DNA of 32,763 nt from a virus. This document shows positions 16,274-31,750 of the stretch, one piece after another (the stretch's first letter is position 1; every line of letters begins with the position of its first letter). A program made the position numbers and the translations under genes. The DNA is taken from the IMG/VR virus record IMGVR_UViG_3300025645_000261, positions 1 to 32,763 of that record; one strand, written 5' to 3'. The notes below the pieces were generated by a model. The model worked only from the letters and a program-made list of their open reading frames with translations. It was not told the origin of the DNA and ran no database searches.

Positions 16274-16902
16274 CCTACGTTGAACTCAGCATCAAGTGCT
16301 TCGTCATCAGTCTCGTTACCATGGTTACGAACACGATCTAACAGCTCTTTCTGAGCGTCAGCAGTTGGACGAGGCATAACGTCATCCATAGACTTCAGAT
16401 CAGCAATAGAAGCAAGTTCGTCTTCGGTAAGAGCACGAGGCTTGCACTTCAATGCTTGGAGTTGGTACTCTACGTTGTAAGGTAGTGGGCCAGTCTTAAC
16501 ACGCTTGAAAGAAATATCCCAACCAGTGTTAACATCAGTAGGGTCACCTAAGTCTTCTGCTGCAGTGATGATTTGCTCCCACAACTTCTTTTTAAGGTTT
16601 GCTACTTTGACTTTGCCGTCGCTTGGGTCAATTACTTGACAAGCGTAGCTCCAGCCGCATTTCAGATCAGGATAGTACTCTCGTACCCAGTCTTGTTCTT
16701 TGTTATTGAATCGCTCAGAGTTTCTATCAAAAGATAGACACTCCATAGGAATGTTTTTGTCGTTCTCACCGTTAATCCAGTATACATAACGTGCAAGAAT
16801 GTCGCCAACTACGCGCATTTTGTTGTCACCGTCTTTGTACTGAAAAGTTGAGATTGAGGATTTTTGGGCTCCGCCCGTCTGCTTGTTAAATGATAATGCC
16901 AT
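16270..16902 (-). CDS. Probable single-stranded DNA-binding protein
   Basis: Likely coats ssDNA at the fork and in recombination, like T4 gp32. The evidence is indirect but consistent: basic, Lys/aromatic-rich middle (WVREYYPDLKCGWSYACQV, VANLKKKLWEQI, WDISFKRVKTGPLPYNVEY) suggesting an OB-fold, and a highly acidic C-terminal tail (NETDDEALDAEFNVG), the usual partner-binding tail of phage SSBs. It lies directly before the gp47/gp46 pair and after the helicase gene. It has no complete zinc motif, unlike T4 gp32. Start ATG overlaps the upstream stop by one base. Length 210 aa. Confidence 0.72.
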   Translation of the reverse strand: MALSFNKQTGGAQKSSISTFQYKDGDNKMRVVGDILARYVYWINGENDKNIPMECLSFDRNSERFNNKEQDWVREYYPDLKCGWSYACQVIDPSDGKVKVANLKKKLWEQIITAAEDLGDPTDVNTGWDISFKRVKTGPLPYNVEYQLQALKCKPRALTEDELASIADLKSMDDVMPRPTADAQKELLDRVRNHGNETDDEALDAEFNVG

Positions 16903-17303
16903 TAGTGTATAGTCTCCAGTGTGACTTCTTCATAGATTAACGTTATTTCGTCTTGTAGTACTATGAGTAGCCTGTTGTCTTTGATTTCGTCAAGAGGCAC
17001 AGGACAATGCAGTGCGTCTAACGTAGTTTTTTGTGTAGCTATATAGTCTGCCGTACTTCGTAAAGAAGCTAAGGCATAGTAAATAGCCAGTTCTTTTTGT
17101 GTATACTTATATGCGTGGTGTAAAAGAAATTCTCCATGTAAAAGAAAACTATCTCCCGTAAAGTCTTTACCGGAGTATTTATAAATAGGGTCAAACTTGT
17201 TGCGAGGTACTTGTTGCTTTATTAGCATTTCCATTATCGTGGTGCAAGTCGCAATATTCCCGTTTGCCGTATCAAAAACCTTTTTCCAATCAAATAAGAG
17301 CAT
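16902..17303 (-). CDS. Conserved phage protein of unknown function (133 aa)
   Basis: An upstream TTG (17333) gives a longer frame, but that TTG is the first half of the -35 box of a strong promoter, so it is not a credible start. ATG at 17303 gives MLLFDWKKVFDTANGN, which looks like the natural beginning. However, this ATG lies only one base after the -10 box, so transcripts from that promoter would begin inside the codon region; ATG 17234 (MEMLIKQ) is the next choice. The protein is mostly helical (AIYYALASLRSTADYIATQ), with no membrane segment or known motif. It heads the operon for SSB, gp47 and gp46, so a replication or recombination helper is possible. Start uncertain. Confidence 0.65.
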   Translation of the reverse strand: MLLFDWKKVFDTANGNIATCTTIMEMLIKQQVPRNKFDPIYKYSGKDFTGDSFLLHGEFLLHHAYKYTQKELAIYYALASLRSTADYIATQKTTLDALHCPVPLDEIKDNRLLIVLQDEITLIYEEVTLETIH

Positions 17304-17304
17304 A

Positions 17305-17333
17305 ATTATACTATCTTTTAACCAAGTTGTCAA
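17305..17333 (-). promoter_or_regulatory. Sigma-70 promoter P1 (consensus)
   Basis: On the minus strand: TTGACA (17328-17333), 17-nt spacer, TATAAT (17305-17310), a perfect match to both boxes. Upstream is an A-rich tract and AATAATTC. It should drive the SSB-gp47-gp46-resolvase-exonuclease-reductase genes. Its start site falls inside the annotated 5' end of the next ORF. Confidence 0.92.
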
Positions 17334-22045: not shown

Positions 22046-22865
22046 ATAATTTTCTCTTTAATGTTTGTACTGATTTTAAGGGTAGTGCACCAGGGTCTGT
22101 GTCCTTTAGCCCTACATTTCGTGATGTCAAGCCTACTCGCTCTACCATCTCTTTTACTTCTTTAGCGGCATCCTGCCCTGCGGTATCTCCATCGAAGAAA
22201 ATTATTACCTCCTCTACACCTTGTATCGAAAGCATTCGCAATTTATCTTCATTTATGTTCTTTGTTCCAAAGGTACAAACTGCGTTAGTTAGTCCTTTAT
22301 CATGTAAATTTACCATATCATATATACCTTCTACTAAGATAATGGAACCTTGTATCGGCTCTACTATAGGGTATAGAGGTAGCTTTGCACCCGCAGGCGA
22401 GATCATGTACTTAGGTGTACCGCCTGTAGTGTGACGGCCATTAAAGGACACAATACGCCCTGATATATCTCGTACAGGAAACACAATGCGACCAATATGG
22501 TCAGTGTCGTGGTGTTGGAACGCTTCAAATCTTTTATAGGTCTCTGGTTTAATATCTCTCCAGTTGCCTACATATGGTACACTACCTTTAGGAAATGACA
22601 AACCAACCGACTCAGACCTTTTTTCTCTAATACGTTTTTTGAGTAGCTCTCGTCTTAGTTGTAATTGGTTTGCCTTTTCGCCAAAGTGTGTAAAAATGTT
22701 GCCTTTGTATCCGCATGAGAAACAGTTAAATATACCTGTGATTTTGTCAATGCGCATACTAGGACTGCTGTCTGCGTGTTCAGGATTTAGACAGGTAACA
22801 ATAGCATCTGCACCTTTCGGTACAAAGTATACTTGTCTTGATACTAATAGTTCTTCTACTGTCAA
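22038..22865 (-). CDS. DNA primase, CHC2 zinc finger plus Toprim
   Basis: Makes RNA primers for the lagging strand. The zinc-binding site is Cys25, His30, Cys48, Cys51 (CLNPEH, CFSC), and the Toprim core has Glu179 (ILVEGIYD) with Asp225 and Asp227 (FFDGDTAG). With 275 aa it is the primase half of a T7 gp4-like protein without a fused helicase; the helicase is a separate gene just upstream. Translation appears to start at TTG 22865, which overlaps the stop of the previous gene (TTGA), so it is coupled to it; no ATG is available before the zinc finger. It overlaps the polymerase by 8 nt. Confidence 0.92.
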   Translation of the reverse strand: MTVEELLVSRQVYFVPKGADAIVTCLNPEHADSSPSMRIDKITGIFNCFSCGYKGNIFTHFGEKANQLQLRRELLKKRIREKRSESVGLSFPKGSVPYVGNWRDIKPETYKRFEAFQHHDTDHIGRIVFPVRDISGRIVSFNGRHTTGGTPKYMISPAGAKLPLYPIVEPIQGSIILVEGIYDMVNLHDKGLTNAVCTFGTKNINEDKLRMLSIQGVEEVIIFFDGDTAGQDAAKEVKEMVERVGLTSRNVGLKDTDPGALPLKSVQTLKRKLYA

Positions 22866-23143
22866 CGTCCAATATCCTTAATATTTTCTTTACTGATTAC
22901 TTGGTACGCGCCCTTGTTATATGCAGGGGCTACGGTGAAGTCTGCACCGGCAGTGTAACTACGGTCTACAGCTTCGCAAGATCCGCCCATATGTAAGGCA
23001 GAGCTATAATGTTTGGTGTCTCTACGATAGGTATCGGAGACTTCCATAGGTTCAAACTTGGGGGTGTATCGTTTAGACTTAGGCAAAGGCTTTCGCTTCC
23101 TGCCTGAGTAAGAGTGTCGTAAACTACCGAATGTAAGTGCCAT
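22862..23143 (-). CDS. Small basic protein of unknown function (93 aa)
   Basis: The frame opens at 23200 inside promoter P2, but ATG 23143 has GGGAG upstream (minus strand) and gives MALTFGSLRHSYSGRKRKPL, so this start is chosen. The N-terminal half is very basic (GRKRKPLPKSKRYTPKF), compatible with nucleic-acid binding; the rest is Tyr/Ser/Gly-rich. No membrane segment. It is the first gene of the P2 unit, directly coupled to primase, so a helper of priming or replication is possible. Family not recognised. Confidence 0.78.
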   Translation of the reverse strand: MALTFGSLRHSYSGRKRKPLPKSKRYTPKFEPMEVSDTYRRDTKHYSSALHMGGSCEAVDRSYTAGADFTVAPAYNKGAYQVISKENIKDIGR

Positions 23144-23171
23144 TTGCTTTCTCCCTTCAAAGTATCCGTAT

Positions 23172-23200
23172 ATTATACGCAAGAAGAGATAAAAAGTCAA
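23172..23200 (-). promoter_or_regulatory. Sigma-70 promoter P2
   Basis: On the minus strand: TTGACT (23195-23200), 17-nt spacer, TATAAT (23172-23177) preceded by CG. Upstream is AAAATATTTC, the AT-rich element of the family. It lies ten bases after the helicase stop and 29 nt before ATG 23143. It should drive the primase, polymerase, PhoH and UvsW genes. Confidence 0.9.
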
Positions 23201-23209
23201 GAAATATTT

Positions 23210-24559
23210 TTATATATCATCAATGGATTCGCCAGTCTTGTGCGAGGAATCGTCTTTCTCTTGCGGAGTCATAGCAGTATCAGGGCCAATCTTTAGGCTA
23301 TCCCAATCTACTGTAGAAGTAAACGATTTCATAGAAGCAGAGCGCATCTTTACACAATTGAATGTAATACATTCGTCTTCGTGATCCCACGTTTCTAAGG
23401 TATATGCAGCATCTGCAGCATCAAGAATACCTTTAGCGAATCGTGCTTCACCAGTTGCGTCTGTTTGATATGGAGATACGACAGTGCAGTCATACTCCTG
23501 TGCCATTGACTTCAATGCTTTACTTACTTCGATCTGTTCTGTCCAATCATATTGACCACCACGAGATGGAAGACTCGACCGCTTTACCTGATTAATATAG
23601 TCTACGATAATGACACCAACATTCAGAGCTTTGACTTTTTTGTCTAGCTCGGCACGAATTTTGGAGAGAGTAAGAGACGCATCATACACGATGTCCAGCT
23701 GTTGAGTCGGGAGGAGCTCACAGGTGTTCTTCAGTGATGTATGCAACTTATTAAAGTCACGATGTATTCTATATTCCTTCAAGCGGTCTTGTCCATCAAC
23801 ATAACGATTTGCCCACCATGTAGCTACTTTTTCCCACTCGGCAAGACTCAGGTTTTGAGTACGTAGACGAGAGAAAGGAACTTCGGTAGCAATGGAACAA
23901 CATCGTTGAAGGATAGAACGGCTATCCATTTCAATAGTGAAATACATAGCCGATTTACCTGAAGCATATACTGCATTAGCAATATTAGCACATATTACAG
24001 ATTTACCAGCACCTCGTTTACCACCGAACATAACAAGGTCTCTGGGTGAGAACTGTATTTCGTAGTCGTACTCTTGATTGAGTCCCAAGGGTATATATCT
24101 GGCTAAATCTTCTTCTGGCTCGAACAGTTCAATACGTTGCATACTTTCCTGCGGATCTTCCAAATCAACCTTGTCTTCGACATCGAGTACGATTTGGTGA
24201 AGATGATTAACAGACTCCTGAGCATTTTCAAATGCAACAGAATTCTCAATATAATCTTCTAGCGAGTCCAGAATTTCTTTTTGAGTGTATTCGTTCTTCA
24301 GATACTCAAGAAGCATATGAGGATCGGCATCGACCTCAATAGCTTCTACTGCGTACAGTTTTTCACGAGTAGCTGAATCACGAATCTCAAACTTTAGATC
24401 CTCAATCGTTGGCATTTTATGGAATGCTTCGCAATGCTTATCAATAATCTTATACAGACTATGATACTCGGATGCGAAATAATGCTTATGCGCTACACTC
24501 CAGGTCTGAAAGTCCTGTAGCGTAAGCACTTGCTTAATAAGCGCACTAGCAATATTCAA
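23210..24559 (-). CDS. DnaB-like replicative helicase
   Basis: Hexameric RecA-fold helicase that unwinds the fork. Walker A GGKRGAGKSV (179-188), catalytic Glu210 region (FTIEMDSR), Walker B VGVIIVDY (314-321), and a downstream VSPYQTDATGEARF (361-374) resembling the sensor and arginine-finger region. The N-terminal 150 residues are helical and acidic, as in DnaB N-terminal domains. Length 449 aa fits the family. The start is TTG 24559, with GGGAG seven bases upstream; no ATG is better placed. It is separated from the HTH gene by a hairpin at 24591-24616, and no consensus promoter is visible, so it may depend on read-through. Confidence 0.9.
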   Translation of the reverse strand: MNIASALIKQVLTLQDFQTWSVAHKHYFASEYHSLYKIIDKHCEAFHKMPTIEDLKFEIRDSATREKLYAVEAIEVDADPHMLLEYLKNEYTQKEILDSLEDYIENSVAFENAQESVNHLHQIVLDVEDKVDLEDPQESMQRIELFEPEEDLARYIPLGLNQEYDYEIQFSPRDLVMFGGKRGAGKSVICANIANAVYASGKSAMYFTIEMDSRSILQRCCSIATEVPFSRLRTQNLSLAEWEKVATWWANRYVDGQDRLKEYRIHRDFNKLHTSLKNTCELLPTQQLDIVYDASLTLSKIRAELDKKVKALNVGVIIVDYINQVKRSSLPSRGGQYDWTEQIEVSKALKSMAQEYDCTVVSPYQTDATGEARFAKGILDAADAAYTLETWDHEDECITFNCVKMRSASMKSFTSTVDWDSLKIGPDTAMTPQEKDDSSHKTGESIDDI

Positions 24560-25361: not shown

Positions 25362-26117
25362 TTATTCTCCGGTAAGAATTTTAAGGTTAGTTACAATTTG
25401 AACGCCAGCATCTCTGGCCTTCTTAGTTTTTGCGGATTCAATCCCGCTTTCGTTTACTAGGATGGTTACATCCTTAGTGAAACTAGATTTTACATTAAGT
25501 CCTGCTGCTTCCAAGGCTGCATGAGCCTCTGCTTTGGTTTTGTAGCTTATCAACTTGCCTGTGATACAGACAGTGTTGACTGACGTATTAACAGGTTTGT
25601 TCTCAGCTCTTACAAATTTAAAGCTAAATGGGAGCATACTCACTCGATAAAATTCCATCTCTAGCCAATGTAAAAGGTTGGCTGTAGATTTCTCACCAAG
25701 ACCTGCTTCGCGGCATATATCGTAGTCTATTTCATCTATATCAATGCAAACTTTTGATAGTTTATCCGCTGCTGTCTTCCCGATAAGAGGAATGCTAAAC
25801 GCTGGTAATAATACGTTTAGAGGAGCACCCGTGGAGCGTTGCAACTCATCTACTAACTTTGTTGCTAGTTTCTCAGAATCCAAGGCTTCTTCTATGTCGA
25901 GTGCGTCTAGTTCATAAATCTCTTCTAGAGAGCGTATGTCTAGCTTAGCTATTGACTTAGGGCCGAGGCCTTTGATCTTGAGAGTCTTTGCAAAGTGTTC
26001 GATAAGTTTTGCAACTTTCTCACCACAATAGGTGTTTCTACAATATAGAAGATGATTTACATTTTCTAAGACTGAGCTACAAGATGGACAAGTAGTTGGG
26101 GCTTCGATTATGCTCAT
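25362..26117 (-). CDS. NAD-dependent DNA ligase, C-terminal half (zinc finger, HhH, BRCT)
   Basis: Carries the part of LigA that binds DNA: a four-cysteine zinc finger (CPSC...CRNTYC, residues 10-31), helix-hairpin-helix repeats (LKIKGLGPKSIAKL and IPLIGKTAADKL), and a BRCT domain in the last 80 residues (VCITGKLISYKTKAEAHAALEAAG). It lacks the KxDG site, which is in the upstream gene 26197-27114; together the two make a full ligase. Split NAD ligases are known in phages, T5 among them. A strong promoter (P3) lies between the halves, and this gene has its own AGAGG before ATG 26117, so it can be expressed alone. Confidence 0.9.
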   Translation of the reverse strand: MSIIEAPTTCPSCSSVLENVNHLLYCRNTYCGEKVAKLIEHFAKTLKIKGLGPKSIAKLDIRSLEEIYELDALDIEEALDSEKLATKLVDELQRSTGAPLNVLLPAFSIPLIGKTAADKLSKVCIDIDEIDYDICREAGLGEKSTANLLHWLEMEFYRVSMLPFSFKFVRAENKPVNTSVNTVCITGKLISYKTKAEAHAALEAAGLNVKSSFTKDVTILVNESGIESAKTKKARDAGVQIVTNLKILTGE

Positions 26118-26196: not shown

Positions 26197-27114
26197 TCAA
26201 TCTAACCGCCTCACGACGCGAGGTATGATTTCACCAGAACGTATAACCTCTACTTTACAACCTAACTCCAAATTAAGATCGCGGATATACTCAATATTAT
26301 GTAGAGTAGCTCTCGATACTGTAGCTTCACCTATAATACAAGGCTCTAATATAGCTACGGGACTGACAACACCGCTTTTACCCAACTGCCATACTACCTC
26401 CAACAGCGTGGTCTCCACTCCAGCTATTTGCTCTTTCAAAGCAAAAGCGCCTCGTGGGTGTTTAGCAGTGTAACCTAGGCTCTTAAAAGTTTTGTACGAA
26501 TCTACACGATAGACAATGCCATCTGTAGGGTAGGCACTAGCATCAAACTTATTAACTGTATTGAAGCCTTGAGTGTTTAGAGCACCCATTGCCTCTCTCC
26601 AGGTACTATTGTTTTCGCCTTGAACATCATAAGCTACAAAAGTTAAGGGTCGAGAACGAAACTCTTCCATAGACTTTAAGTTTAGTGACCCCGAAGCGAA
26701 GTTACGAGAGTTAGGAACACTGCTTGGAGCAATTACCTCACCAGTGATTTGAACAACACCCAAGTACTTAATTGTATTAGGTACTAGATGTTGCATCTTA
26801 TCTGTGATGTCTCTACCATGGATGCCGTCACCTCTGGTTAAACCCAGTTGTAATTCGCCACCTATGTATAGAATAGATACTGCTGCTCCATCTAATTTAG
26901 GAGTTCTCACGTAGCCGTCTAGTGCTGGAGCTTTGGTAATATCAAAAAACTTCTGCAACGAATACATTTGATATGTATGTGGCACTGCATCAGTAACCTC
27001 ATACCCAACTGTATTGTAGTTATGCTTTTCTGCTAGAAGGTCGAACTCCGCATCTGAAAGAAGTGGAGTACCTTCGTAATATAACTTACTTGCTCTGTCT
27101 AAAAATGCTCGCAT
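26197..27114 (-). CDS. NAD-dependent DNA ligase, N-terminal half (Ia, adenylation, OB)
   Basis: Contains the NAD-binding Ia region (YYEGTPLLSDAEFDLL, residues 12-27), HTYQMYSLQKFFD (46-58), the AMP-accepting lysine Lys73 in PKLDG, TRGDGIHGRDIT, GEVIAP, a later DGIVYRVD and FALKEQ, and the start of the OB fold (WQLGKSGVVSPVA...SRATLHN). The Ia region is shorter than in bacteria. The zinc finger, HhH and BRCT domains are in the next gene. It seals nicks and joins Okazaki fragments in complex with that partner, as inferred from T5. AGGAAAACAAT lies before ATG 27114 and promoter P4 lies upstream. Confidence 0.92.
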   Translation of the reverse strand: MRAFLDRASKLYYEGTPLLSDAEFDLLAEKHNYNTVGYEVTDAVPHTYQMYSLQKFFDITKAPALDGYVRTPKLDGAAVSILYIGGELQLGLTRGDGIHGRDITDKMQHLVPNTIKYLGVVQITGEVIAPSSVPNSRNFASGSLNLKSMEEFRSRPLTFVAYDVQGENNSTWREAMGALNTQGFNTVNKFDASAYPTDGIVYRVDSYKTFKSLGYTAKHPRGAFALKEQIAGVETTLLEVVWQLGKSGVVSPVAILEPCIIGEATVSRATLHNIEYIRDLNLELGCKVEVIRSGEIIPRVVRRLD

Positions 27115-27862: not shown

Positions 27863-28303
27863 CTAACCTTCGTCAGAAAGTAGGGTAGTAAAGTACTGAG
27901 CGGCTTTACCAGTCAACTTAGAGATAATCTCTTCATCAACAGCTTTACCTGCATCAGTAATAGCAGCGGTGAGGGCTTCTTGAGCTGCTGCTTTGGAGAC
28001 ACGAGTGCCGCCTGTAGCTGCACCGGTAGAAGCGGTTTTTGCTGCTGGGGTTTTCTTAACGTAGACGCCAGCCTTTGTTAAAATCATGCGAACACCGTTT
28101 GGTGATTCGTCGAGTTCTTCTGCAATATCTTTTACGATCTCCATAGATGTTTCTGGAGTTGGTTCTGCTGCTTCATAAAGGCGTACTGCCTCTGCTTTCT
28201 TATCGTCATCCCAAGCCACTTTTCGGCTCCTTCTGTTAGGGTTTTTGTTTCCTGGGCAATCGCCCAGAGTTTTGAGTTGTTGTTCGTAGAATCTTTGTCC
28301 CAT
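27863..28303 (-). CDS. HTH DNA-binding protein (146 aa), single-gene unit
   Basis: Residues 28-74 (VAWDDDKKAEAVRLYEAA and VKDIAEELDESPNGVRMIL) form a Myb/HTH unit with the same layout as the four units in the 241-residue protein (compare VEAIAEQIGKTARGVKTML). A basic, Ala/Thr-rich linker (TPAAKTASTGAATGGTRVSK) leads to a small helical C-terminus. The start region is Asn/Arg/Lys-rich (GNKNPNRRSRKV). GAGGA precedes ATG 28303. It has its own strong promoter (P5) and terminator, suggesting high, independent expression. Likely a DNA-binding regulator or histone-like protein. Targets unknown. Confidence 0.72.
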   Translation of the reverse strand: MGQRFYEQQLKTLGDCPGNKNPNRRSRKVAWDDDKKAEAVRLYEAAEPTPETSMEIVKDIAEELDESPNGVRMILTKAGVYVKKTPAAKTASTGAATGGTRVSKAAAQEALTAAITDAGKAVDEEIISKLTGKAAQYFTTLLSDEG

Positions 28304-30870: not shown

Positions 30871-31085
30871 TGTCCACTTCTCCCAACAAGATCTCGTTTA
30901 TACACTGCTGTGGTGTTTGTGCCCATTTGCGGGCACACTAAAATAAACTCCGGTAATCCATGCTCATCACTGTTACCCGCTTCACCACAGATAAAGAATG
31001 AACCACTCTTGTCAGGTTGTGTGTGAAACCAAATCTTTTTCAGCTTGGTGAACAGTTCATGTTCTTCGTCAGTGATTTCTTTCAT
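30867..31085 (-). CDS. Conserved small phage protein (72 aa), unknown function
   Basis: ATG 31085 (MKEITDEEHELF) has GGAGG seven bases before it; a GTG one codon earlier is possible but less likely. The core FFICGEAGNSDEHGLPEFILV followed by CPQMG is a conserved-looking pattern that I associate with unnamed marine phage proteins. Two cysteines and strands suggest a small beta protein. It overlaps the upstream gene by about 17 nt and the membrane peptide by 3 nt. Confidence 0.75.
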   Translation of the reverse strand: MKEITDEEHELFTKLKKIWFHTQPDKSGSFFICGEAGNSDEHGLPEFILVCPQMGTNTTAVYKRDLVGRSGQ

Positions 31086-31695
31086 CACTCACCCTCCTTT
31101 TGATTTTCTCTGCTATCATTTCCGATACTAAGTCATTATTCCACCAGCCTGGCTTGTCACGATATTTCCATTCTGCGAAGTTATTTTTATCGTACATATA
31201 AAAGTTGCGGTAGGACTCAATAGCTGTGCCTTGCTTATATTTGTCTGGCATTATTTTCATTGCTAAAGCAAAAGTGGTAAACCCATGGTCTTCCATGTGT
31301 TTTGGTTCTGGCAAAGCATAGAGCATTGCAAGACTTTTGTGATCACTACCATAACGATAGTGTGCTTCGCTACCGAGAGCAAAGGCGTAGCAATTTGTCC
31401 AGAAGTAATTTTCAAGAGAGGAACGCACCCAAACACATGAAGGATGATTCTGCATGGTAGGAAGGTATGGAAAGAGTCTATCTTCCATTGGAACTTCTTT
31501 CCACTCTTTGCGAGTCTTTTGCAGAATAGCATTTTCTTCTTTAGTGATAGCACGAGGTACAAAACCGAATAGGTGATCTATCCAGAGATTTGTGCAGATA
31601 AGCTGTGCGGCTTCGAGTATCATCTTATTGACGTGTCGGTCAACATGATACTCTGCACACTTATCGAGGTCTTCGTCTAGGTAAAAAAGATTGAT
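31069..31695 (-). CDS. Conserved phage protein with likely AUC start (208 aa)
   Basis: The first standard start is ATG 31623 (MILEAAQ), but the frame is open upstream and the extra codons read NLFYLDEDLDKCAEYHVDRH and then VNKM, a typical N-terminus of a phage family (recalled pattern FYLDxDxxKCAxYHxDxHVxKMILE). The codon before it is ATC at 31695, seven bases after AGGAG (31703-31707) and at the right distance from promoter P7. No ATG, GTG or TTG is in frame between. So translation probably starts at AUC. The C-terminus has MPDKYKQGTAIESYRNFY and ends near WWN...RRVSDERNH. No enzymatic motif is certain; a DNA-repair role is only a suggestion. Confidence 0.72.
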   Translation of the reverse strand: MNLFYLDEDLDKCAEYHVDRHVNKMILEAAQLICTNLWIDHLFGFVPRAITKEENAILQKTRKEWKEVPMEDRLFPYLPTMQNHPSCVWVRSSLENYFWTNCYAFALGSEAHYRYGSDHKSLAMLYALPEPKHMEDHGFTTFALAMKIMPDKYKQGTAIESYRNFYMYDKNNFAEWKYRDKPGWWNNDLVSEMIAEKIKRRVSDERNH

Positions 31696-31702
31696 GATAA
31701 TT

Positions 31703-31707
31703 CTCCT
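31703..31707 (-). promoter_or_regulatory. Shine-Dalgarno AGGAG deciding the AUC start
   Basis: AGGAG on the minus strand, seven bases before ATC 31695. There is no other start codon with a Shine-Dalgarno in this frame. The expected transcript from P7 (start near 31715) includes it. Confidence 0.7.
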
Positions 31708-31721
31708 AAAATTGAATATGT

Positions 31722-31750
31722 ATTATACGCAATTTTAGAAAGACTGTCAA
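31722..31750 (-). promoter_or_regulatory. Sigma-70 promoter P7
   Basis: On the minus strand: TTGACA (31745-31750), 17-nt spacer, TATAAT (31722-31727) preceded by GCG. The upstream GAATAACTC contains the stop codon of the spanin-like gene. It drives the 208-residue gene, the 72-residue gene and the membrane peptide. Confidence 0.93.

Follow-up and report, generated by a model that had tools for sequence, protein, structure and literature searches.

Where does a conserved phage gene begin when its reading frame stays protein-like upstream of the first ATG? The gene in question lies on the minus strand of a 32.8-kb IMG/VR virus record (32,763 nucleotides, analyzed whole and referred to here as the window), which carries genes for tail fibers and for replication (polymerase, primase, DnaB, ribonucleotide reductase, ThyX, and a split NAD ligase). 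A sequence-only reading had placed its start at an ATC codon. Such start signals are of a very rare type; pcnB has one of the AUU type. Comparison of homologues shows, as far as sequence can, where the gene starts, how this start is conserved and turns over, how it is coupled to Shine-Dalgarno (SD) strength, and that starts of this type are confined to two gene families.

The focal locus

Direct reading of the minus strand agrees with the layout proposed earlier (Table 1). AGGAG stands seven bases before ATC 31695, the promoter said to lie at the right distance is a perfect sigma-70 promoter (TTGACA-17-TATAAT, 31750 to 31722), and no in-frame ATG, GTG, or TTG precedes ATG 31623. The window contains two copies of the promoter/leader pattern, versus 0.00 in shuffled sequence. 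The SD duplex has an energy of −7.3 kcal/mol, assuming an E. coli-type 16S tail, which may not be that of the host. After the ATC, the frame reads AAT CTT TTT TAC CTA GAC GAA GAC CTC GAT AAG (NLFYLDEDLDK), and it ends at a stop codon at 31071 to 31069. Since ATT and ATC (31701 to 31696) directly precede ATC 31695, three isoleucine codons would be possible starts from this sequence alone; the choice of 31695 rests on SD spacing and, more decisively, on the homologues.

TABLE 1 Sequence features of the AUC-started gene and of the second gene family with such starts
Feature	Positions	Strand	Remarks
−35 hexamer TTGACA	31745..31750	−	With the −10 hexamer, 12/12 consensus match, 17-nt spacer
−10 hexamer TATAAT	31722..31727	−	TATAAT also upstream in 28/28 ATC/ATT members
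Shine-Dalgarno AGGAG	31703..31707	−	7 nt (AATTATC) before ATC
AUC start codon (very probable)	31693..31695	−	Column holds ATG, TTG, GTG, ATC, or ATT in relatives
phrog_624 gene, 208 codons plus stop	31069..31695	−	phrog_624 E value, 8.5e-39; purifying selection on codons 2 to 24
In-frame ATG at codon 25, an invariant internal Met rather than a start	31621..31623	−	76/76; inside helix 19 to 43 of the model
MNLFYLDEDLDK			Predicted peptide of the AUC-started gene
phrog_1725 gene, ATG in the window	27863..28303	−	Relatives also use ATC or ATT

The start column across relatives

A scan of IMG/VR returned 564 relatives. In the best 79 of these with residue 1 aligned, the start column holds ATC in 31, ATG in 24, ATT in 16, TTG in 6, and GTG in 2, and a DNA pattern with ATH as the start found 47 stretches. 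Further scans that set out from more distant members contributed chiefly ATG (59/72; ATT, 4). After near-copies were taken out, 91 nonredundant IMG/VR members remained, with 52 ATG, 17 ATC, 11 ATT, 8 TTG, and 3 GTG. In 80 homologues from genome contigs of bacteria and archaea, part of which are probably phage, the codon is ATG in 64, GTG in 13, CTG in 2 (L360:1501-1503 and L403:1501-1503), and TTG in 1. In an annotated phage collection, the gene starts exactly at this column in four phages. The canonical starts of relatives thus align with codon 31695, as the proposal of an AUC start predicted, and none of the homologues begins at internal ATG 31623.

All 28 nonredundant ATC/ATT members have an in-frame stop 4 to 12 codons upstream, and in none of the 28 does a canonical start lie between that stop and the ATC or ATT; the next canonical codon downstream is codon 18, 22, or 25. 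We also screened 1,312 distinct open reading frames (ORFs) of the phage group, every other codon serving as a control. In ORFs lacking a nearby canonical start, the codon at SD distance was ATC 29 times and ATT 12 times, more than chance would give; other codons occurred at most 3 times, with ATA and CTG at 0 each. ATA is likewise absent as a start from the nonredundant members of the focal family, beside 28 with ATC or ATT; it is nevertheless one transition from ATG and is used by Staphylococcus aureus genes.

The suspicion that an ATG had been misread in sequencing or assembly does not stand up. ATC and ATT occur in dozens of independent contigs, drawn from the metagenomes of many different IMG/VR samples, which excludes a read error, with a consistent leader and with two different bases at the third position; we give this explanation practically no weight. 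On these comparisons, the AUC/AUU start is a clade-wide, evolving feature of a marine phage group, and we place the start of the gene at AUC 31695 to 31693 with high confidence.

The first 25 codons and the protein product

If translation began at ATG 31623 or at some other codon downstream of the AUC, the upstream frame would be a leader; the one argument for this is that no canonical codon comes earlier in frame. Across the 28 ATC/ATT members, pN/pS is 0.086 for codons 2 to 24 versus 0.376 for codons 26 to 188, indicating stronger purifying selection on the former than on the rest of the gene. Residues N2, F4, L6, A14, D19, H21, and K24 are invariant in the family. Codon 25 encodes Met in all 76 sequences, adjoins invariant K24, lies near invariant E28, and falls within helix 19 to 43 of the predicted structure (mean pLDDT, 87.6). 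This invariance, the selection upstream of it, and the helix position led us to reject ATG 31623 as the start. Moreover, relatives with ATG, GTG, or TTG and the annotated phages begin at codon 1, and the conserved leader is laid out so as to put no SD at the downstream codons. A downstream start is therefore highly improbable, and because invariant residues stand among the first 25 positions, a product truncated at Met25 is unlikely to be functional.

The sequence-only reading had called this a conserved phage gene, and most of the protein (residues 4 to 199 of the ORF at 31072 to 31701) indeed matches phrog_624, a family labeled "DNA binding protein." Certain phrog_624 members carry a pyrimidine dimer glycosylase annotation, and phrog_624 and PF03013 (Pyr_excise) proteins share with the focal family the N-terminal motif MN[IL]F..D.D....A..H.DKH..KM..E. 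However, the window protein does not match PF03013 up to an E value of 1. That profile matches 21/47 relatives (best, 3.9e-6), only L251 and L253 lying above the cutoff. All members of the focal family have Asn at residue 2, whereas the N-terminal Thr of T4 endonuclease V provides the catalytic amine (PMC3285167). On this basis we would not assign the protein to the pyrimidine dimer glycosylases. A fold search of the PDB with the model, covering the T4 endonuclease V fold, returned nothing above a Z score of 4.4; a PDB sequence search gave a single match at chance level, and matches in BFVD are uncharacterized phage proteins. The focal early gene probably encodes a DNA-binding or DNA repair protein.

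Restriction to two gene families

When promoter-driven genes of the phage-group contigs were grouped by family, ATC or ATT starts were found in 33/69 genes of the focal family and in 5/50 of phrog_1725. They were absent from the N-terminal (0/45) and C-terminal (0/21) ligase halves and from the remaining multimember promoter-driven families. The screen also returned ATA twice, both times as a mechanical call followed two codons later by an ATG, and one unclustered ATT call. The phrog_1725 gene starts with ATC in L040, L090, L111, and L144 and with ATT in L294 and L296, behind the same type of leader as the focal gene; in four cases examined, there was no canonical codon upstream in frame. Because the ligase and other promoter-driven genes keep ATG, these comparisons indicate that AUC/AUU initiation is specific to two gene families and does not characterize the phage or host at large. 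Both families are labeled DNA binding by PHROGs, by annotation only. Across 33 contigs, weak starts in phrog_624 and phrog_1725 within one phage showed no clear pattern of correlation.

The same data bear on the idea that the host reads AUC and AUU about as well as AUG, through lax IF3 or an unusual initiator tRNA, so that the codon is neutral. The many independent occurrences within one phage group would fit such a host, as would a possible ATT start of the DnaB gene (homologous to window positions 23210 to 24559) in L161 and L163, where ATT stands behind GGGAG at a position held by TTG in 23 sequences; we do not claim this start, as a TTG lies upstream in frame. Yet these phages use ATG almost exclusively in their other promoter-driven genes, which speaks against lineage-wide lax initiation, and the weak codons are found only with a strong SD. 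The 32.8-kb window contains no tRNA gene, so an unusual initiator is not encoded in this part of the phage genome. A permissive host is thus very unlikely.

Turnover and coupling to Shine-Dalgarno strength

On a gene tree built without the start codon, ATC/ATT and canonical starts interchange 14 times on the best tree, at least 8 of these forced by well-supported branches, and ATC and ATT interchange 6 times; these counts are events, not necessarily point mutations. Single steps join all forms (ACC ATC AAT, ACC ATT AAT, ACC ATG AAT, and ACCA TTG AAT).

The SD is stronger where the codon is weaker. Mean duplex energy is −7.6 kcal/mol in ATC/ATT members (n = 28) versus −4.6 kcal/mol in ATG members (n = 52) (P = 2e-13, kinship ignored), and the difference holds against promoter-bearing ATG members only (P = 3e-11, kinship ignored). 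All 28 ATC/ATT members lie between −7.1 and −9.4 kcal/mol for an assumed E. coli-type 16S tail; TTG members also have a strong SD (−7.3), and most ATG members have a weaker one than ATC/ATT members. In phylogenetically independent pairs, a strong SD went with ATC/ATT 7 to 0 (median P = 0.016, at a cutoff of −7.2 chosen after the data were seen). Structure at the start was discarded as a factor because ATC/ATT leaders fold, if anything, more weakly (−3.8 versus −5.9 kcal/mol).

The closely related genes L082, L138, and L167 carry ATC, ATG, and TTG leaders, and the upstream context of the ATC leader differs too, which suggests that leader and start codon are probably exchanged between phages as a block by recombination. 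As promoter, leader, and start codon seem to travel together, common descent may account for the link between SD and start codon.

A model for AUC initiation

As the most economical account, we propose that a strong sigma-70 promoter yields a short, little-structured leader on which the ordinary initiator tRNA of the host, charged with fMet, pairs with AUC despite a third-position mismatch, stabilized by a strong and well-spaced SD duplex. IF3 would disfavor AUC and AUU, so translation per mRNA is expected to be low and IF3 sensitive, by analogy with what is known of IF3 (PMC5472188) and with measurements in S. aureus (PMC13009471). The start codon of the focal gene, and more rarely that of phrog_1725, would move among AUG, UUG, AUC, and AUU, with weak codons accepted only alongside a strong SD and output kept within a tolerated, probably low, range. 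Here, we infer fMet use, low output, IF3 sensitivity, and selection for low dose. As a whole, the statement that ordinary fMet-tRNA initiates at AUC, with SD compensation and low-range, IF3-sensitive output, seems to us probable.

The main competitor accepts the AUC/AUU start as real and denies it a regulatory role: output would equal that of AUG sisters with a weak SD, and leaders would drift and recombine among equivalent solutions. In its favor, the SD strengthens as the codon weakens, similar compensation is known for GUG and UUG (PMC5622118), leaders are swapped as blocks, and strong SDs accompany TTG as well. It sits less easily with the confinement to two gene families, although the ligase and other genes have promoters and leaders of the same type, and with the persistence of ATC and ATT in whole subclades, although AUG is one back-mutation away. 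We consider such compensated drift possible but rather unlikely. A strong SD argues equally for constant and for low output. Restriction to two genes favors selection on dose, and block exchange together with SD compensation favors mere tolerance of a weak codon.

A further elaboration of AUC/AUU initiation is that these codons act as a sensor. Genes that combine a strong promoter and SD with a start codon rejected by IF3 would be translated chiefly while IF3 is in short supply compared with free 30S subunits, or once infection has reduced the fidelity of initiation, and the two DNA-binding products would thereby be timed or limited during infection. With either trigger, we regard this reading as doubtful.

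Relation to known noncanonical starts

Starts of the AUC/AUU or a similar type are already known from infC, sigR, cvfC1, and pncA; the recurrent phage form appears to be new. In the open-access literature covered by our searches, we found neither phage AUC/AUU starts nor a family with recurrent ones coupled to the SD. The infC gene, which encodes IF3, starts with ATT in Escherichia coli and ATC in Streptomyces (PMC5472188). It thus resembles the focal gene in its AUU or AUC start, on which IF3 acts; infC is autoregulated through its own product, whereas the phage gene has no known link to IF3. Streptomyces sigR has a GTC start with AGGAGGTG and is repressed by IF3 (PMC5472188). Like the focal gene, sigR (GTC/GTT) combines a strong conserved ribosome-binding site with a pyrimidine-ending noncanonical start kept across species (PMC5472188). 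IF3 repression has been shown for sigR (PMC5472188), whereas for the focal gene we infer IF3 sensitivity; furthermore, the sigR codon is stable in Streptomyces, while the focal codon switches many times together with SD strength.

In S. aureus, AUU and AUA starts with an extended SD give about 10% of AUG output (PMC13009471). There, cvfC1 (AUU) and ccpN (AUA), the latter encoding a transcriptional repressor, pair a weak start with a strong extended SD, as the focal gene does (PMC13009471). Those are cellular genes with ribosome profiling and reporters; the focal phages are uncultured, known from sequence, and showed no AUA start. Borrelia pncA (bbe22) has an AUU start, and databases list a truncated protein (PMC13398362), as gene callers would for the focal gene. 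Unlike the focal case, it is a single gene with genetic and structural proof (PMC13398362).

Gene callers limited to ATG, GTG, and TTG would shorten such proteins, here by 24 residues, including invariant ones. In one phage gene family, the start codon has crossed between ATC/ATT and the canonical forms no fewer than 8 times. The sister alleles (ATC, ATT, ATG, and TTG), each with its own SD on closely related genes, form a natural experiment that bears on the trade-off between SD strength and start codon and on IF3 proofreading as a setter of phage gene expression.

Other initiation signals in the window

A promoter/leader cassette (TTGAC[AG]-17-TATAAT, a leader containing TTC, and then an SD) is repeated at 31750 to 31709, 27168 to 27121, 26172 to 26125, and 28356 to 28328, drives several genes, and seems to be exchanged between phages. 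The NAD-dependent DNA ligase is split into genes at 26197 to 27114 (phrog_3359) and 25362 to 26117 (phrog_3498), both of which have a perfect sigma-70 promoter of their own. Genes at 16902 to 17333 and 22862 to 23200 keep a TTG start in 4/4 sequences without an SD. Finally, the gene following the focal one begins within its end (31069 to 31088), at GTG 31088 or ATG 31085; its SD, AAAAGGAGGGTGA, is the second strongest in the window (−13.2 kcal/mol), and this gene may be translationally coupled to the AUC-started gene.
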